DNA of 21,262 bases from a virus. Location of the stretch: the IMG/VR virus record IMGVR_UViG_3300020371_000076, positions 1 to 21,262 of that record; one strand, 5' to 3'. How positions within the stretch are numbered: position 1 is the stretch's first letter; each line of letters opens with the position of its first letter. Positions 7,862-21,027 of this stretch are shown here, piece by piece. The notes under the pieces are model-generated. The model had not been told where the DNA came from. It was given only the letters and a program-made list of their open reading frames with translations, and ran no database searches. A program made the position numbers and the translations under genes.

Positions 7862-9730
7862 TTAGTTTGTTACTACTTTACCTTGAATATCTATAAGTGG
7901 AAATTTAACTTCAAAAATAGAAGGATCTATACAAGGATATAATACTTCATTTATAGTAGCTCCTTTTATATCATAAGCAAATTGAGAATATCCACCACTT
8001 TCTCCTACTTTATTTACTATTTCTAATTTTTTAACTGTTTGTACTCCATCTACTTGGTCAATTACATTTCTAACATTATTAATTAAAATAGGTTGATTAA
8101 TTTGCATTTTATCTGTATCAAAAAATGATGTTAGTTCTGTTATTATATTATTTAATACTAGACTATTATTATAGTTAGGCAATAAAATTACATCAAAATT
8201 TATACCTATATTAATAACAAAAGCATCTTTTATAGTAACAGCATCTGTTAGCATCCTATATTCCGCTAAATAAGTTTTTAAGTTTTGTTTTAAAGCCGGA
8301 TCACAATTAGTTAATTTTCCTCCTGAATCTTTTGATAAAATATGTAAACATAATGCATTAACATTTTCTTCATCATAAACAGATATTCTATCTGAAATTT
8401 GTTCATTTTGTTGTGTTATATAAGCTTTATATACTACTCCAAATTGTGAAGGTAAAGACATAGCTCTTATAACATAATCATCTTTTGTTACTGTTCTTAA
8501 CTGAGATGGGTATTGAGAAATAGTATTTAACCTAATGTCTTCATTAGTATCGCCATCTCCTCCCCCTACAGCAGGGCTTGGATTATTAAATGCTAAAGAA
8601 TCCGTTACTGTATCTTGTAATGTAGAATCTAAATTAGCACCAAAAAATGAAGTACTACCAGAATCAAAAGTTGTAATAGTATTAGCTGGTACATTAGCGG
8701 AGGCTCCTCCTCCTACTAAATAGTTTACAGTTAATGTAGTATTGGAGGGGGCTACCCCATAAGCTTTAGTAAATAAAAAATTAGAAGGATCAAATGCTGT
8801 AGTTAATTTATCCACACCATATGGTAATCCTAAACCTATATTATCTGGATTAGGAATTATAGTTTCATCTGGTCCAGAAGAAATACCTGATCCAAATTGT
8901 AGTTGTAATTTATTATCTGTTTTATATCTAGCAATATATCTATAAGGTACTTTTCTTAATTTTAATAAGAAAGGTGTTGTATCACCATACTGAGCAAAAT
9001 TAGGGTCATTTTGAGCTATATTTTGTTGTGGATCAAAAATAGTTTCTTGGGCTAAATAATTTACAGGATAATAAAGTCTACCATCTGAATCAGTTACTTG
9101 AGTTGTTTTTATAATATTAGTATCTTCTAATTCTATAGTAGGAAACTTTTCAGGAGCACCAAATGTAAAAGTAGTTTGTCTAAATTCTCCAGATACTGCT
9201 CTTTTAGTTTTCTTTAATAAATAAAAATTAGGATTATCATCTGAATCTATAGAGTAAACTGATACATCAGTAGGATCTGAACTACTAGATACAGAAAAAT
9301 CTATTTTATCTTCTATATAAAATTTTTCATTTCCCGATCTTAATTGTGACCCCTCCTGAATAATTAAGGAATAGTTGTAGTCTGGTTCTACTAATCCAGA
9401 GGTAATAGTTGAGGGGACTAATTGAAATACTTCTATTTCGGCTGTAGCTGCATTAGTTACTTGTGGAAAGTAACCATTATTATAAGCTAAGGATAATAAG
9501 TTATTTCTTTGTTTGGCAAATTCTATAAAATTTTCTTGAACTTGACTATCAGCATAAAATGAAAGTACATCACCTACATATGAGGCCATTTCTACTAACA
9601 TTAATCCAGCTGAATTTTCTGAAAAATCATTATAGGTATTAGGATAATAAATTTCTGCAAATTCTAACAATTTTTGTTTGAATCCATCAAAATCTTTATT
9701 TAAATATTGTACTTGTTTAGACTCCGCCAT
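7862..9730 (-). CDS. gp6: Baseplate wedge protein, gp6/baseplate-J family
   Basis: The product is 622 residues, close to T4 gp6 (660). The N-terminus has the family signature: YLNKDFDGFKQKLLEFAEIY, then YPNTYNDFSENSAGLMLVEM, then ASYVGDVLSFYADSQVQENF (residues about 9-68). In T4, gp6 dimers join neighbouring wedges and form the inner baseplate ring that opens on contraction. The ATG lies inside the end of gp25 with a 14-base overlap, giving the gp25-gp6 order also found in T4 and many contractile systems. The rest of the chain contains segments typical of baseplate-J domains, including a Gly-rich GGGDGDTNEDIRLNTISQYP near residues 385-405. No truncation is seen. This is one of the most secure assignments in the window. 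Confidence 0.9.
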   Translation of the reverse strand: MAESKQVQYLNKDFDGFKQKLLEFAEIYYPNTYNDFSENSAGLMLVEMASYVGDVLSFYADSQVQENFIEFAKQRNNLLSLAYNNGYFPQVTNAATAEIEVFQLVPSTITSGLVEPDYNYSLIIQEGSQLRSGNEKFYIEDKIDFSVSSSSDPTDVSVYSIDSDDNPNFYLLKKTKRAVSGEFRQTTFTFGAPEKFPTIELEDTNIIKTTQVTDSDGRLYYPVNYLAQETIFDPQQNIAQNDPNFAQYGDTTPFLLKLRKVPYRYIARYKTDNKLQLQFGSGISSGPDETIIPNPDNIGLGLPYGVDKLTTAFDPSNFLFTKAYGVAPSNTTLTVNYLVGGGASANVPANTITTFDSGSTSFFGANLDSTLQDTVTDSLAFNNPSPAVGGGDGDTNEDIRLNTISQYPSQLRTVTKDDYVIRAMSLPSQFGVVYKAYITQQNEQISDRISVYDEENVNALCLHILSKDSGGKLTNCDPALKQNLKTYLAEYRMLTDAVTIKDAFVINIGINFDVILLPNYNNSLVLNNIITELTSFFDTDKMQINQPILINNVRNVIDQVDGVQTVKKLEIVNKVGESGGYSQFAYDIKGATINEVLYPCIDPSIFEVKFPLIDIQGKVVTN

Positions 9731-10139
9731 TGTTTATATTTATTTGAATTTCGTCTTCAATATTAGTGTTAATTACGGAATAATTAAGGTTTATAATTAC
9801 TTTTGATTCTTCTTGAACGAAATCTATTGTTAAATCATTAATTTGAACATTAGGAAAAAATTCATTAACTCCTCCTATTATTAAGTTTTCCATATCACCC
9901 CTTAAATCATCCGTTAAAGGTTGAAACATTAGTTCTCTTAATCCAGAACCAAATCCGGGATTTAATACTCTTTCTCTTTTACCAGTTAAAAGAAAATTTA
10001 GTAAATTAGATTTTATGGCATCTTGAGTAGTAAATGTAGTATTAATACCTGTAGCACCATCAAAAGGTATTTTTATACCTACTCCAGTACTAGGTTTTAA
10101 ATCTAAAATATCTACATTTCTAAATAAGTAATCAGCCAT
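9717..10139 (-). CDS. gp25: Baseplate wedge protein gp25 (GPW/gp25 family)
   Basis: The product is 140 residues, against 132 for T4 gp25. The family core is visible: a helix AIKSNLLNFLLTGKRERVLN (residues 41-60) followed by PGFGSGLRELMFQPLTDDLR. This is the LLTxxGER...P.FG signature of the GPW/gp25 family. The protein helps form the trifurcation core of each wedge with gp6 and nucleates sheath assembly at the inner baseplate. The ATG shares one base with the stop of the 152-aa gene (TAATG), and the 3' end overlaps gp6 by 14 bases. Despite its historical 'lysozyme-like' label in some databases, I see no lysozyme catalytic motif. Confidence 0.9.
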   Translation of the reverse strand: MADYLFRNVDILDLKPSTGVGIKIPFDGATGINTTFTTQDAIKSNLLNFLLTGKRERVLNPGFGSGLRELMFQPLTDDLRGDMENLIIGGVNEFFPNVQINDLTIDFVQEESKVIINLNYSVINTNIEDEIQININNGGV

Positions 10140-10597
10140 TATAATTTACCTTTATCTTTTAAATTACTCATTAATCCAGAAAAATCTGGTACAGAATCAA
10201 TACTTACTTGATTGATATCTGAAGTTTTTTGTCCCGCTACCATATCATTAACTGAATCTACTACTTTAGTTTCTTGTCCGGGCATTCCACCTTGATATGA
10301 AACTGCATCTTTAGCCGTCATACTCCCCATATTTCTCCAACCTCCTTCAGCATGTGTTTGGTTTAATACATCTGAAAGTGCTCCTACTCCTTCAAATAAA
10401 GGTTTTGTAGGTTTATTTTGTGATTTAGGTTCTTCTATAATATCGGATAGTGTAGATTTTTTATTTTTTACTTCTACAACCGGCTTTTTTACTGTTTTAG
10501 TTTCAGTTATAGGAGTTTGCATAATTAATGAAAGTTCTTCTTTAATTACTGTTCTTACCTCTTCTCTAATTACTTTTCTAAAAGCTTCTAATTTCAT
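10139..10597 (-). CDS. Unknown protein with charged N-terminal helix (152 aa)
   Basis: The first 25 residues form a strongly amphipathic charged helix (MKLEAFRKVIREEVRTVIKE). I recall this type as common at the N-termini of small T4-like marine phage proteins. A Lys/Pro-rich, probably disordered segment follows (about 30-70). The C-terminal half is Gly/Asp/Ser-rich with no recognisable fold (GGWRNMGSMTAKDAVSYQGG). The gene starts a coupled run into gp25 and gp6. It has a 36-base upstream gap containing an ATATTTATA element that ends 3 bases before the ATG. A baseplate assembly or scaffold-like role is possible from context only. No other ATG lies before residue 26, so the start is fairly secure. 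Confidence 0.7.
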   Translation of the reverse strand: MKLEAFRKVIREEVRTVIKEELSLIMQTPITETKTVKKPVVEVKNKKSTLSDIIEEPKSQNKPTKPLFEGVGALSDVLNQTHAEGGWRNMGSMTAKDAVSYQGGMPGQETKVVDSVNDMVAGQKTSDINQVSIDSVPDFSGLMSNLKDKGKL

Positions 10598-10600
10598 GAT

Positions 10601-10609
10601 TATAAATAT
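10601..10609 (-). promoter_or_regulatory. ATATTTATA leader element before the 152-aa gene
   Basis: The coding strand reads ATATTTATA ending 3 bases before the ATG at 10597, within the 36-base gap 10598-10633. It matches the 9-mer found at four other gene starts. At this spacing a promoter would put the transcript start at or inside the ATG, so a translation-initiation role is equally possible. Confidence 0.3.
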
Positions 10610-14636: not shown

Positions 14637-15724
14637 TATAAACCTCCTTCAAATTCTTCTCTAGGTACATCACCTACTGATCTATCTACACTTAAATTTC
14701 TATTTGCTTCTTGGGGAGATAAGGCTGCCGGTTTTGTTACATCACCTTTAGGTTCCTGATTTATTGAATCTGTAACTACAGTTACTGCATCGGCATCTTT
14801 ATTAGATGTGAATTCATCTCCTAATTCCTCAGTTAGTTTTTGGAATTCTTTAGTAGTATCTTCAGGTGGGGTTATATCTACACCATATGATGTAAGTTTA
14901 GAATAAGCTATTTCTATAGGTATGTTTTGTGTAGAAGTTAAATATATAGATGAATCATCATCATTTATATCTTCAAATGTAGGATCATATACTTCAGCAG
15001 CTATAGCTTCTTTTTTTTGCCCATTTCTTAATATAGTAATGGGATCTCCTACTCTACCATTTTTGCTCCATGGGTTTTGTGGACTAACCTTAAAATTAGA
15101 AAAATCTCCTCTATATCTACTAGTAGAACCAAATCTTAAAGAATTACCAAATTTACCTTCAAGTAAAAAATCTCCTTCCTGGGGGTATAAATTTCTTATT
15201 TTACCTTGCTCTTTAAAAACATCACCTAATACAGGTCCTTTTGTTTTATTGCTAGGAGTATTAGGCATTCCTGCTTGTATTTCAGCATTAGTATTAGTAT
15301 TAGTACTATCATTACCTTCGGAAGCTTGAGAAGGAAAAGTATTAGTTTCTATACTATTCCACACTGGGATAGCAGGAGTATAATAATACTGTTCAAGTTC
15401 TTTAGTATTTCTATCAGGTCCTAAAGTTACATATACTATATCATTTACTAATGGCAATATCTTCATGGAAGCATTCATGGGTAAGGCCATAGTAACATTT
15501 GAAGTTTTAGAATTAGGTGTGGGTTGATTTAAAAATTCAAATTTAATAGCCCCTAATCCCCAATATTCATCCATTTGTTGAAATAACGAAGTAGTTCGTT
15601 TTTCTGGTTTAATATTTACTTCAGTTACTCTAACAGGTATTAAACCTGGTTTAGAGGGGGTTATGTCTGGAGGAGTTCTATTTAAAGTTCCTACACTTTT
15701 ACTAAAATCAAGTGGTCCTGACAT
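14636..15724 (-). CDS. Spike-hub protein with gp5-type OB fold (362 aa)
   Basis: The product is 362 residues. About 28-122 form an OB-fold-like domain (LIPVRVTEVNIKPE, LPMNASMKILPLVNDIVYVT, then YYTPAIPVWN). About 181-236 hold PQEGDFLLEGKFGNSLRFGS followed by NPWSKNGRVGDPITILRNGQ, which I recall as a conserved signature of gp5-like proteins in T4-like and Bacteroidota phages. The C-terminal third is acidic, Thr/Asp-rich and probably disordered. The start at 15724 overlaps the 122-aa gene by 17 bases, and the stop is coupled by TAATG to the beta-helical spike gene. The pair probably does together what T4 gp5 does in one chain, but without the lysozyme part. Confidence 0.75.
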   Translation of the reverse strand: MSGPLDFSKSVGTLNRTPPDITPSKPGLIPVRVTEVNIKPEKRTTSLFQQMDEYWGLGAIKFEFLNQPTPNSKTSNVTMALPMNASMKILPLVNDIVYVTLGPDRNTKELEQYYYTPAIPVWNSIETNTFPSQASEGNDSTNTNTNAEIQAGMPNTPSNKTKGPVLGDVFKEQGKIRNLYPQEGDFLLEGKFGNSLRFGSTSRYRGDFSNFKVSPQNPWSKNGRVGDPITILRNGQKKEAIAAEVYDPTFEDINDDDSSIYLTSTQNIPIEIAYSKLTSYGVDITPPEDTTKEFQKLTEELGDEFTSNKDADAVTVVTDSINQEPKGDVTKPAALSPQEANRNLSVDRSVGDVPREEFEGGL

Positions 15725-16076
15725 TATCTACAATTGTTTTTTCTGTTTTTTTATCTAATTCTTGCAATGAGCTAAATAACATTTCTTTATCTTCTTCAGA
15801 AAGTAATTCATCACCATCTGCTATTTTACTATTCATAGCACGTTGTACTATACCTGCCATTTTAATTAATGCATCATCATTTTTAATTGCTAGTTCCATA
15901 TATTCCTTTATTAAAGGAACAATCATAGTAGCTTCACCTGGTGATGTAATTAATGGTTTTAAACCCTCTATTAAAGAACGTAGTTGTGTTTCTTTATCTT
16001 TTTGATTAGTGTGAATTTCTTTTAAAAGATCAGAAAAGTTTTTCTTTCCAAATAATTTTACTTGTGAAAAATCCAT
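15708..16076 (-). CDS. Helical protein opening the tail operon (122 aa)
   Basis: The product is 122 residues, predicted almost all helical and without membrane segments. It is charged at both ends (FSDLLKEIHTNQKDKETQLR at the start, LQELDKKTEKTIVDNVRTT at the end). No family is recognised. It is the first gene of the structural block. It lies 39 bases after the sigma-factor gene, with an ATATTTATA element 15 bases before its ATG, and its last 17 bases overlap the OB-fold spike-hub gene. A tail-assembly chaperone or a small baseplate component is plausible from position, but this is inference. Confidence 0.75.
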   Translation of the reverse strand: MDFSQVKLFGKKNFSDLLKEIHTNQKDKETQLRSLIEGLKPLITSPGEATMIVPLIKEYMELAIKNDDALIKMAGIVQRAMNSKIADGDELLSEEDKEMLFSSLQELDKKTEKTIVDNVRTT

Positions 16077-16091
16077 AGTCTATACTTTGGA

Positions 16092-16100
16092 TATAAATAT
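16092..16100 (-). promoter_or_regulatory. ATATTTATA element between sigma gene and tail operon
   Basis: The coding strand reads CTATATTTATATCC here, 15 bases before the ATG at 16076. It sits in the 39-base gap between the probable late sigma factor and the first structural gene. Of the repeated elements this one is best placed to act as a late promoter for the tail operon. Whether it is read in this orientation or as TATAAATA on the other strand cannot be decided from the sequence. Confidence 0.4.
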
Positions 16101-16115
16101 AGATGTACTAAAAGT

Positions 16116-16922
16116 TTAGAATGCCATACTAACAGTCCCATGTTCAATGTATTGAGCCATTAGTTTTTTATATATTTTTTTCATTCGTTTTAGTACTTTA
16201 GTAATTTGTGGAGTACTTTGATCAGTCATCTCACGAATGTAAATGTATATAGCTTTTTTATTGAATAATTCTATATGTTCTCTTCTTCTAAATAAAGATA
16301 ATATTGCATCAGCTGTTCTAGCATCTTCATGTTTAGGAAAATGATCAAATAAATGTATATCAAAATATTGAATTAAGTATTCTATAAATTCAGTAGCTTC
16401 ATCTTTTGGTTTATCTATAGATTGATTATTAACTAAATCTACTAATATAGATTGATCGTTATCAACAGCGTCTACTTCTGCTCTTTGTTTTAATTTTTTA
16501 TAATTATTATTATTATAAAGTATTAAATAACGTTTAGCAATAGTACCAAAATAAGAAAATGCCTTACCTTTATCTTGTTTATATAAGTGTAATTTTTCTA
16601 AAAGAAAGGCAGTTACTTCATGTTGTAATTCCCCTATAGTATCTACTTCAGTATAGTAGAATTTAAAAGTGTGAATAATATTTTCTGTTAATTTATGAAA
16701 TGCATACCAAATACGATCGTTATATATTTGATTGCGTTTTTTTTCATCAGTTTCTTTTAGATACTCAAGAATAGCCTCCTCAGTATCAGCAGTAAAATAT
16801 TGGTTTTTAGTTTTAGGTCTCCTTTTTCTTAATGTACCTTTTTTAGTATACATTGGACCCTCGTCTCGCTTAGGTGGAGTTAGAATGTTCCCCTGGAGCT
16901 TTTCATCAATAGGTAGGTTCAT
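16116..16922 (-). CDS. Probable late-transcription sigma factor (T4 gp55-like)
   Basis: The product is 268 residues, against 185 for T4 gp55. Residues about 62-147 resemble sigma region 2: ELQHEVTAFLLEKLHLYKQD, then KGKAFSYFGTIAKRYLILYN, then a basic NNNNYKKLKQR. This parallels the T4 gp55 order of a helix, a Y/F-rich PHAYITQACF-like strip and a basic patch. Residues about 205-258 look like an extra helix-turn-helix (KKAIYIYIREMTDQSTPQIT, then KVLKRMKKIYKKL) similar to sigma region 4; T4 gp55 lacks this. The basic N-terminus (KKGTLRKRRPKTKN) may bind DNA. The ATG overlaps the previous stop as ATGA. Its place directly before the tail operon fits a role in directing host RNA polymerase to late promoters. 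An ordinary phage sigma of another lineage is the alternative. Confidence 0.7.
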   Translation of the reverse strand: MNLPIDEKLQGNILTPPKRDEGPMYTKKGTLRKRRPKTKNQYFTADTEEAILEYLKETDEKKRNQIYNDRIWYAFHKLTENIIHTFKFYYTEVDTIGELQHEVTAFLLEKLHLYKQDKGKAFSYFGTIAKRYLILYNNNNYKKLKQRAEVDAVDNDQSILVDLVNNQSIDKPKDEATEFIEYLIQYFDIHLFDHFPKHEDARTADAILSLFRRREHIELFNKKAIYIYIREMTDQSTPQITKVLKRMKKIYKKLMAQYIEHGTVSMAF

Positions 16923-17203
16923 TTATTTATATTATACTCGTTTATAAGTTCCTGAATCTCTTTAATTCCGGAAAAAAACCATCCTATCTCATCATCTGAT
17001 TGGAAAATTTGTTTTGAATCGATCTCTTTAATTTTACGATCCGATTCGGACATTATAGTCGTAATATTTTCTATATAATTGTCCCTTTTAAGGATTTCAT
17101 CTTCAAGTTTTTCATTTTTTCTCATTAAATTCCAAATGATATAAAAAATGACCCCAAAAACAAGGACACCAACGTTGATTAAAATAATGGTAATTGTATC
17201 CAT
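16919..17203 (-). CDS. Membrane-anchored coiled-coil protein (94 aa)
   Basis: The product is 94 residues. Residues about 3-26 form one strong membrane helix (TITIILINVGVLVFGVIFYI). A charged helical segment (about 28-65, RKNEKLEDEILKRDNYIENI) is probably a coiled coil. Acidic residues lie before the helix and Arg/Lys just after it, so the positive-inside rule places the C-terminal part in the cytoplasm. The gene is coupled to both neighbours: TAATG with the HD gene and ATGA with the sigma gene. No family is recognised. A membrane-tethered partner of the sigma factor or of replication or assembly complexes is conceivable, but unproven. Confidence 0.75.
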   Translation of the reverse strand: MDTITIILINVGVLVFGVIFYIIWNLMRKNEKLEDEILKRDNYIENITTIMSESDRKIKEIDSKQIFQSDDEIGWFFSGIKEIQELINEYNINK

Positions 17204-17961: not shown

Positions 17962-18303
17962 TTAAACTTGTATTTCATAATAATATTGTAAGAGGATCTC
18001 AAGAGCTTCCTCAATTGAGTTAAATATACGAATGCGACTTAGTTTCTCCAAATTTGTTTCTGAAATTATGTAAGTATATTCTTCTGGTGCTTTTTTAATG
18101 CATATAATTGGATAATATTCCGTTCCAAGTTTTGATTCTAGGTAATCACCAACAGCTTCATTTTGTTCAACATCAATATTAGTAAATGGGATTCTGAGTT
18201 CTTGGAGTGTACCTTTGAGTGCTTGACAGTATTTACAATCGGAAATTGTATATAACGTTATTTCCCCTACCCCCTTTTTTCCTATTTTCTCTAAAACCCC
18301 CAT
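17962..18303 (-). CDS. Glutaredoxin-like protein (113 aa)
   Basis: The product is 113 residues with a glutaredoxin fold. A first strand EITLYT (residues 14-19) is followed by the dithiol site C23-K-Y-C26 at the start of the next helix. IPFTNIDVEQ follows, and then YYPIICI with the conserved cis-proline at about P65. Phage glutaredoxins usually supply electrons to ribonucleotide reductase (T4 nrdC is the model), but no reductase gene is in this window. The gene leads the operon glutaredoxin, HD hydrolase, 94-aa membrane protein, sigma factor. An ATATTTATA element ends 2 bases before the ATG. The first 13 residues are extra relative to the fold, but no later ATG is available. Confidence 0.85.
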   Translation of the reverse strand: MGVLEKIGKKGVGEITLYTISDCKYCQALKGTLQELRIPFTNIDVEQNEAVGDYLESKLGTEYYPIICIKKAPEEYTYIISETNLEKLSRIRIFNSIEEALEILLQYYYEIQV

Positions 18304-18305
18304 TT

Positions 18306-18314
18306 TATAAATAT
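18306..18314 (-). promoter_or_regulatory. ATATTTATA leader element before the glutaredoxin gene
   Basis: The coding strand reads ATATTTATA ending 2 bases before the ATG at 18303. It lies in the 63-base gap 18304-18366 that separates this operon from the 95-aa gene. The rest of the gap shows no obvious Bacteroidota TAnnTTTG promoter box and no strong terminator. Confidence 0.3.
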
Positions 18315-18366
18315 TAAATTTCTAAACTCTCCGTATTTAGAAGCTACGAACAATTTTTGGCTTTTC

Positions 18367-19995: not shown

Positions 19996-20253
19996 TTAAA
20001 TAGCTTCAATTAAACCTAATGATGCTTTAACTTTTCCACCATTTTCATTTCTTAATATATAAGTTTTTCTATTGATTTTTTCAACAATATATTCTTTACC
20101 TATACATTTTCTATGATTGATTCTTACTTTAGAACCTACTCTGATATCTTCGTGAGATTCAATTAATTTATCTTGAATTACATACTTAATTTGAGCCTGT
20201 AATCCTCTTAATTCTTCAATACTTAATTTTCTTAATTCTGAATGTTTAATCAT
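19996..20253 (-). CDS. Small protein with SH3/KOW-like barrel (85 aa)
   Basis: The product is 85 residues. The N-terminal 35 residues form a charged helix (LRKLSIEELRGLQAQIKYVI). The C-terminal 45 residues look like a small SH3/KOW-type beta-barrel (DIRVGSKVRINHRKCIGKEY, then VEKINRKTYILRNENGGKVK). Such barrels often bind RNA, DNA or ribosomal partners, so a regulatory role is plausible but not shown. The leader contains TATAAATA on the coding strand 15 bases before the ATG and a near copy of the repeated leader element 24 bases before it. It leads a tight three-gene run with the 71-aa and 153-aa genes. Confidence 0.65.
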   Translation of the reverse strand: MIKHSELRKLSIEELRGLQAQIKYVIQDKLIESHEDIRVGSKVRINHRKCIGKEYIVEKINRKTYILRNENGGKVKASLGLIEAI

Positions 20254-20263
20254 AACCTTTTAT

Positions 20264-20323
20264 TTATTTATTTATACCATAAATATACGAACAGTATCTT
20301 GGGACTCCAAGCCTCCTGTGCAT
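20264..20323 (-). CDS. Possible 19-aa peptide (MHRRLGVPRYCSYIYGINK)
   Basis: The ATG at 20323 shares its A with the stop of the 56-aa membrane protein (TAATG), the junction type used throughout this window. The frame is only 19 codons and ends in TAA at 20264, ten bases before the 85-aa gene. The peptide is basic and Tyr-rich. It also overlaps the near copy of the leader motif, so it may simply be untranslated leader. Low certainty. Confidence 0.2.
   Translation of the reverse strand: MHRRLGVPRYCSYIYGINK
20269..20276 (-). promoter_or_regulatory. TATAAATA, T4-late-promoter-like box before the 85-aa gene
   Basis: The coding strand reads TATAAATA exactly, the core of T4 late promoters, ending 15 bases before the ATG at 20253. 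It sits in the short gap between the small-membrane-protein cassette and the 85-aa gene. Eight-base AT-only matches are expected by chance in DNA this AT-rich, so placement is the main support. Confidence 0.3.
20278..20286 (-). promoter_or_regulatory. Near copy (ATATTTATG) of the repeated leader element
   Basis: The coding strand reads GTATATTTATGG, one mismatch from the ATATTTATA element seen at five other leaders, 24 bases before the ATG at 20253. Immediately downstream is a TATAAATA box, so this leader carries both orientations of the core. Confidence 0.25.
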
Positions 20324-20493
20324 TACTTCCAAGGAATCATAGTCATTCCTATTTGATTCAATATAATTTCTAATATAATAAAAAACACACCACCCGCTAT
20401 TAATTGCCATGCTAACCACTTCCAACCTGTTAGTGATAAAGCCCATTTTCGTATTGGTGATTTTTTAGCTAAATTATATAAATACTTTTTCAT
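20323..20493 (-). CDS. Small membrane protein, one transmembrane helix (56 aa)
   Basis: The product is 56 residues. The N-terminal 26 are strongly basic and Trp-containing (KKYLYNLAKKSPIRKWALSL). One membrane helix follows at about 27-48 (LAWQLIAGGVFFIILEIILN), with a short tail ending in PWK. The positive-inside rule predicts N-in and C-out, leaving only about 8 residues outside. That is too short for an inner-membrane spanin. An upstream ATG in frame (20547) would overlap the lipoprotein gene. The ATG at 20493 lies 4 bases after the lipoprotein stop and gives the natural packing, so I chose it. The stop shares a base with a downstream ATG. Confidence 0.65.
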   Translation of the reverse strand: MKKYLYNLAKKSPIRKWALSLTGWKWLAWQLIAGGVFFIILEIILNQIGMTMIPWK

Positions 20494-20754: not shown

Positions 20755-21019
20755 CCTCTAATCTTAAAACCGTATATATAATAATTGCAACTAACCCATG
20801 TAAAAATATCTTAGGGGTAGCAAGGGGGAAAGGGATAGATTGATTGAATACACCTGCTATATAGAGCCAAACAGCAAATACATTAATACCAATTACAACT
20901 TGTCCAAATAATTTAACATCTGGTTTAAAATATCTCATTAATCCATAGAAGATACCAAAGAATACTAAAAATTGTGCGGTACTATAAAGAAATGTTATCA
21001 TATCTGCAATTATCTGCAT
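20744..21019 (-). CDS. Three-helix membrane protein, holin-like topology (91 aa)
   Basis: The product is 91 residues with three membrane helices at about 8-27 (ITFLYSTAQFLVFFGIFYGL), 37-57 (LFGQVVIGINVFAVWLYIAG) and 70-86 (KIFLHGLVAIIIYTVLRL). The first loop is basic (RYFKPDVK), and the second is short and uncharged apart from one Lys at its end. The positive-inside rule gives N-out, C-in, the topology of class I holins such as lambda S. That is suggestive only, since no endolysin lies in the window. Two starts are possible. The ATG at 21019 overlaps the end of the ATATTTATA element. The seventh-codon ATG at 21001 would put the element 17 bases upstream, the same spacing as at the 219-aa gene. 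The gene heads the small-membrane-protein cassette. Confidence 0.7.
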   Translation of the reverse strand: MQIIADMITFLYSTAQFLVFFGIFYGLMRYFKPDVKLFGQVVIGINVFAVWLYIAGVFNQSIPFPLATPKIFLHGLVAIIIYTVLRLEDGK

Positions 21020-21027
21020 ATAAATAT
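21019..21027 (-). promoter_or_regulatory. ATATTTATA leader element before the membrane-protein cassette
   Basis: The coding strand reads GTATATATTTATATG. The element touches the first ATG of the 91-aa gene and lies 17 bases before its seventh-codon ATG at 21001. It is in the 55-base gap between the basic 56-aa gene and the cassette. A promoter here would fit translation from the second ATG better. Confidence 0.35.

Follow-up and report, generated by a model that had tools for sequence, protein, structure and literature searches.

Genes and repeated elements of the window

The window, that is the whole stretch of viral DNA analysed here, spans 21,262 bases, and every one of its genes lies on the minus strand. 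It carries gp25-like (9717-10139) and gp6-like (7862-9730) baseplate genes, a glutaredoxin gene, and a gene at 16116-16922 for a sigma-like protein of 268 amino acids. A viral collection holds 346 relatives of this protein. The closest cultured phage is Flavobacterium phage immuto, whose sigma-like protein is 42% identical and which shares the sigma neighbourhood with the window: a phosphohydrolase gene, the sigma gene, and the baseplate run. These phages belong to a large group of T4-type viruses, the hosts of which are probably flavobacteria.

The original prediction listed five copies of the word ATATTTATA on the coding (minus) strand, each within about 17 bases of the start of a gene not coupled to its predecessor. 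All five positions are exact, and the copies stand 17, 3, 15, 2 and 0 bases from the called ATG, the last being an overlap. Three of them are assigned to a late class: the copy at 954-962, 17 bases before gene 277-936, a virion-block gene orthologous to immuto 90688; that at 10601-10609, 3 bases before gene 10139-10597, which heads the baseplate run upstream of the gp25-like gene; and that at 16092-16100, in the gap after the sigma gene and 15 bases before gene 15708-16076, the first after sigma. The copy at 18306-18314, 2 bases before the glutaredoxin gene (17962-18303), is the weakest member of the set. The fifth, at 21019-21027, is overlapped by the called start, which is probably misplaced, as in a comparison of three sequences one relative (L011) lacks this first ATG and the conserved start corresponds to the ATG at 21001-20999, about 17-18 bases downstream of the element. 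Of the two proposed groups of spacings, 15-17 and 0-3 bases, the 0-base site would then belong to the first.

Two more copies of ATATTTATA (5536 and 14230) lie on the other strand within genes. The total of seven on both strands is mildly unusual (2.97 +/- 1.65 in shuffled sequence, with 4 of 100 shuffles reaching 7). The placement of the copies is not due to chance, all five on the coding strand falling inside the 404 of 21,262 bases (1.9%) that make up the non-coding DNA just upstream of starts. The 8-base core TATTTATA has, as claimed, a single further coding-strand copy at 20477-20484; it falls in codons 4-6 of a 56-amino-acid ORF (20323-20493, beginning MKKYLYNLAKKSPIRKW), which is a better fit than the mechanically called ORF 20264-20446 that overlaps it and likely encodes a small membrane protein. 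The core in the opposite orientation had been described as scattered inside genes, but this does not hold for every copy: one is intergenic (20269-20276), and another, at 16924-16931 within the end of the gene preceding sigma, reads in sense as the T4-type word TATAAATA and is separated from the sigma ATG by 1 base.

Two classes of upstream element in the relatives

Enrichment of the element near gene starts is clearly positive in the relatives, where it marks virion genes and not all genes. The labels 'late' and 'other' came from blastp against immuto's annotated virion blocks, without use of the motif, so that 'late' is defined by gene function. An initial motif model mixed two kinds of site and suggested TTCGTATATTTA for all of them; the finding of a TTG at a 20-base spacer, arranged as in the sigmaA promoter of Bacteroidota, called for a division into two classes, which the split by gene function achieved. 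A de novo search of 113 non-redundant late-gene upstream regions returned exactly ATATTTATA, at about 74 sites, with no strongly conserved block or column further upstream, whereas the same search on the other genes returned TTCG-TATATTTA. The core TATTTATA precedes 53 of 113 late but 19 of 144 other genes (P = 2e-9), and TTG-N20-TAnnTTT shows the reverse preference (4/113 versus 30/144, P = 3e-5). The T4 consensus TATAAATA in sense orientation stays at background in both sets (6/113 and 8/144, P = 1). Roughly one in two uncoupled late genes is without an exact core. Retraining the model on reverse-complemented sequences merely reversed the motif and was uninformative as a control.

The census of whole genomes agrees with this picture. 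Copies of ATATTTATA that are in sense, non-coding and at most 50 nt upstream of a start make up 14 of 17 in immuto, and 21/25, 21/33 and 9/11 in three further genomes (G001, G002 and G003), in a compartment that comprises 2-3% of those genomes; for the three large relatives (immuto, G001 and G002) together the figure is 56 of 75. In immuto, late sites precede the terminase, portal, sheath, tail tube, hub and tape-measure genes, and several lie directly behind a terminator-like hairpin with a T-run. The top words upstream of uncoupled genes in sigma-bearing contigs are ATATTTATA and TATATTTA, both of them strand-specific.

Alignments of orthologs show that the position of the element is retained while the flanking sequence changes. 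TATTTAT is found upstream of 12 of 13 genes orthologous to the one behind the element at 954, down to about 43% protein identity, and in all 36 orthologs at the 10601 site, mostly 3-4 bases from the ATG (in immuto at 81525). The element at 16092 is present in 81 of 83 orthologs, in many of them followed by ATCCAAA, with its immuto counterpart at 78906. That at 18306 is the least conserved, being absent from about half of the orthologous glutaredoxin genes. Coupled genes have no element at the orthologous place, and sites at which coupling has been lost (L068, L084 and L086, before the 6739 ortholog) do have one. Upstream of the glutaredoxin gene a stretch of the form TTACCTT-n-TACGG is conserved in most relatives (window 18304-18366 and orthologs); a conserved hairpin was suspected before this gene, but no consensus RNA structure was found among the orthologs.

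The genes outside the late set use a promoter of another kind, TTG-N20-TTCGTATATTTA. Among 152 TATATTTA sites close to starts, 49 have a TTG at a spacer of exactly 20 bases, against a background of about 3, and this fixed spacing argues that the TATATTTA class is a real promoter. Its example in the window is TATATTTATG at 20278-20287 (minus strand), upstream of gene 19996-20253 and preceded by TTCG, with a TTG, the -33-type box, at 20308-20310 (minus strand) exactly 20 bases from TATATTTA. The near copy of the late word reported at 20278-20286 does therefore exist, but as a member of this early class. In immuto, 15-20 small early-region genes (NC_055915.1, 60-77 kb; L088) have a near-identical promoter and leader, TTG-N20-TATATTTAGGTATCAATAATTAAAACA, conserved up to the ATG.

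Promoters of the Bacteroidota sigma factor sigmaA (sigmaABfr) have been described as -33 TTTG / -7 TAnnTTTG (PMC6847099, PMC9723704). Judged by sequence, the early class is a variant of this host promoter: it has the same two-box layout, with A at -5 where hosts have G (TTG-N19-21-TAnnTTTA occurs 77 times versus 2.8 expected). The late class departs further, having no -33 box, no fixed T at -12, and A in place of G at -5. In 169 upstream regions from 16 AT-rich flavobacterial loci, TATTTATA occurs 2 times (3.6 expected) and TAnnTTTG 59 times (11 expected), whereas in the phages TATTTATA occurs 90 times (9.4 expected) and TAnnTTTG 20 times (15.8 expected). The late element, enriched in the phages and not in flavobacterial upstream regions, is thus not a host promoter word.

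The distribution of the two classes among other phages is uneven. Flavobacterium phage FCL-2 has no excess of either, and the 50 kb read of Cellulophaga phi4:1 holds the TTG-N20 class only. In the 50 kb read (90-140 kb) of L132, a 484-kb uncultured phage (LR756508.1) whose sigma is 40% identical, neither motif was found, hinting that the motif changes with the sigma factor.

The sigma-like protein and the T4 late system

In the predicted structure of the 268-residue protein, residues 44-147 match region 2 of many sigma factors, including SigB (Z 9.7, rmsd 2.5 over 90 residues) and the sigmaE region 2 bound to -10 DNA (Z 9.3, rmsd 2.8 over 93). As matches of a helical domain at Z 9 to 10, they give moderate support to a sigma region 2 fold. 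At the sequence level, Sigma70_r2 (Pfam, best E 0.0015) and a phage sigma profile are weakly matched in 7 of 17 relatives, and searches of PDB sequences and profiles with the protein itself returned no matches. A profile comparison with T4 gp55 gave a weak match confined to region 2 (hhalign E 0.11), and the PHROG assignments differ (phrog_1740, weak, versus phrog_234 for T4), so that on sequence grounds the similarity to gp55 is too weak for a claim of family membership. At the C-terminus, where sigma factors of the gp55 family have a clamp-binding tail, 100 residues make up a conserved helical domain without a clear structural relative; its identification with sigma region 4 was considered and is unsupported, the best match (Z 5.4) being to unrelated helical proteins. 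A search for the clamp family PF02916 gave zero matches anywhere, controls included. The immuto ortholog, KNV73_gp118 (NC_055915.1, 78174-78872), is annotated as hypothetical and merits the label of putative late sigma factor.

The T4 late promoter, TATAAATA, is read by gp55-RNA polymerase together with gp33 and the gp45 clamp (PMC2988020). Like it, the element described here is a lone conserved 8-bp AT box before virion genes, without a -35 box, in T4-type phages that encode their own sigma-like protein. Six of eight letters of TATTTATA are identical to the T4 box on the same strand, the central AA being replaced by TT (TAT-AA-ATA, TAT-TT-ATA). There are also differences, in that a conserved A precedes the core in these phages, and the sigma-like protein is longer than gp55 and only weakly matched by its profile. 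The original prediction described the core as the reverse complement of the T4 late promoter, which is correct as letters but misleading; given the sense of the element relative to its genes, the same-strand change of AA to TT is the economical description and no reversed promoter is needed. The reverse-complement reading as such is rejected, as sense TATAAATA is at background in these phages. T4 itself, passed through the same pipeline, gave its known TATAAATA in sense in 12 of 24 cases. The element would work like a T4-type late promoter, but its consensus makes it a variant and not a full member. In silico analysis of late-gene upstream regions has likewise yielded versions of the T4 late box peculiar to particular phage groups, in the cyanophage S-PM2 (NATAAATA; PMC2984593) and in Aeh1 (a/gC at -13/-12; PMC2988020); these differ in the first position or the first two, whereas the variant of the flavobacterial phages differs at the middle two. 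No earlier description of the motif was found in the open-access literature searched.

A probable late promoter and its alternatives

Taken together, the evidence makes it highly probable that ATATTTATA, with its core TATTTATA, is a -10-type late promoter box of T4-type Bacteroidota phages, probably read by the phage sigma-like protein. Of the two readings offered at the outset, a late promoter served by the adjacent sigma factor is the one favoured by the enrichment in relatives and the specificity for virion genes. The choice of reader draws on the co-occurrence of protein and element, on the word being absent from promoters of the host, and on the T4 precedent; the genes behind the element, classed as late by function, would presumably be expressed late. 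Host RNA polymerase would first transcribe the early genes from TTG-N20 promoters; the sigma-like protein, which resembles gp55 in phage type and presumed role, would then direct the host polymerase to ATATTTATA, with RNA starting a few bases downstream. At late promoters of the T4 type, the transcript begins about one helical turn beyond the box. As ATATTTA is common to the late core and the early class, one polymerase might read both. The late sites as a whole lie 3-39 bases from the ATG, most of them at 14-23, and most would yield short leaders of roughly 5-20 nt. Two of the window's sites are too close to the ATG for a leadered mRNA, and sites 2-3 bases away would give nearly leaderless messages; for the conserved 3-base site this would apply if RNA starts 4-5 bases past the box, as in F. 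johnsoniae.

The possibility that the host sigmaA holoenzyme reads ATATTTATA as a loose -7 box, leaving the phage protein some other role, would account for the late core having A-11 to T-6 in common with TAnnTTTG (PMC6847099, PMC9723704) and is favoured by the little -33 signal in F. johnsoniae promoters and by the few late sites (4 of 113) that do have TTG-N20. It is nonetheless unlikely, as host and phage upstream regions show opposite preferences for TAnnTTTG and TATTTATA, and the late class neither conserves T-12 nor retains G-5. An AT-rich translation-initiation signal in the mRNA, the other reading put forward at the outset, is less probable still. The proximity of the element to starts, including the two window sites 2-3 bases from the ATG of which one is kept in 36 of 36 orthologs, speaks for it, as does the use by flavobacteria of A-rich contexts in place of Shine-Dalgarno sequences, which they lack (PMC6847099). 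Such a signal would be difficult to reconcile with the wide spread of distances to the ATG, with the lack of enrichment at flavobacterial starts, with the element separating late from other genes, or with coupled genes being without it (TATATTTAT occurs at 54 uncoupled versus 1 coupled genes); moreover, a -33 box at fixed spacing, such as the related class has, belongs to the anatomy of a promoter. It is very unlikely, finally, that the element is an operator or a terminator-linked AT tract without promoter function, although the 10601 site contains an inverted repeat, ATAAATATTTAT, and AT-rich spacers are common in these genomes: across 319 upstream regions TATATTTA occurs 54 times in sense and 2 times as its reverse complement, and the reverse complement of the core, TATAAATA, is at background.

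The late-promoter reading can be extended to a phage-private two-tier code, in which the early class mimics the host promoter with G-5 changed to A, and the late ATATTTATA is read by a highly diverged sigma factor with an unrelated C-terminal domain, in part producing nearly leaderless mRNAs. This fuller scheme is put forward tentatively, with a chance of being right a little under even; if true, it would mean that the late-transcription system has diverged in parallel with the unusual promoter grammar of the host. What lies at its base is a real, conserved element, very probably a late promoter, whose consensus is new while the kind of system is known, the sigma-like protein being its presumed specificity factor. 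For Bacteroidota phages of this large and little-studied group it provides a concrete late-promoter consensus. It also points to a role for a protein that carries the annotation 'hypothetical' in the cultured relative immuto, makes late operons callable from sequence in hundreds of metagenomic contigs, and illustrates the way in which a late system of the T4 type may be adjusted where the promoters of a phylum differ from those of E. coli.

A separate observation concerns 'Microcystis phage Mel-JY01' (PP395634.1; L127-L130), which has TTG-N20-TAnnTTT promoters of the Bacteroidota type (7 versus 0.4 expected) as well as copies of ATATTTATA, and whose sigma and baseplate proteins are closest to those of flavobacterial phages. 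The cyanobacterial host given for it may therefore be an error, and the phage perhaps infects a Bacteroidota companion in the culture instead.
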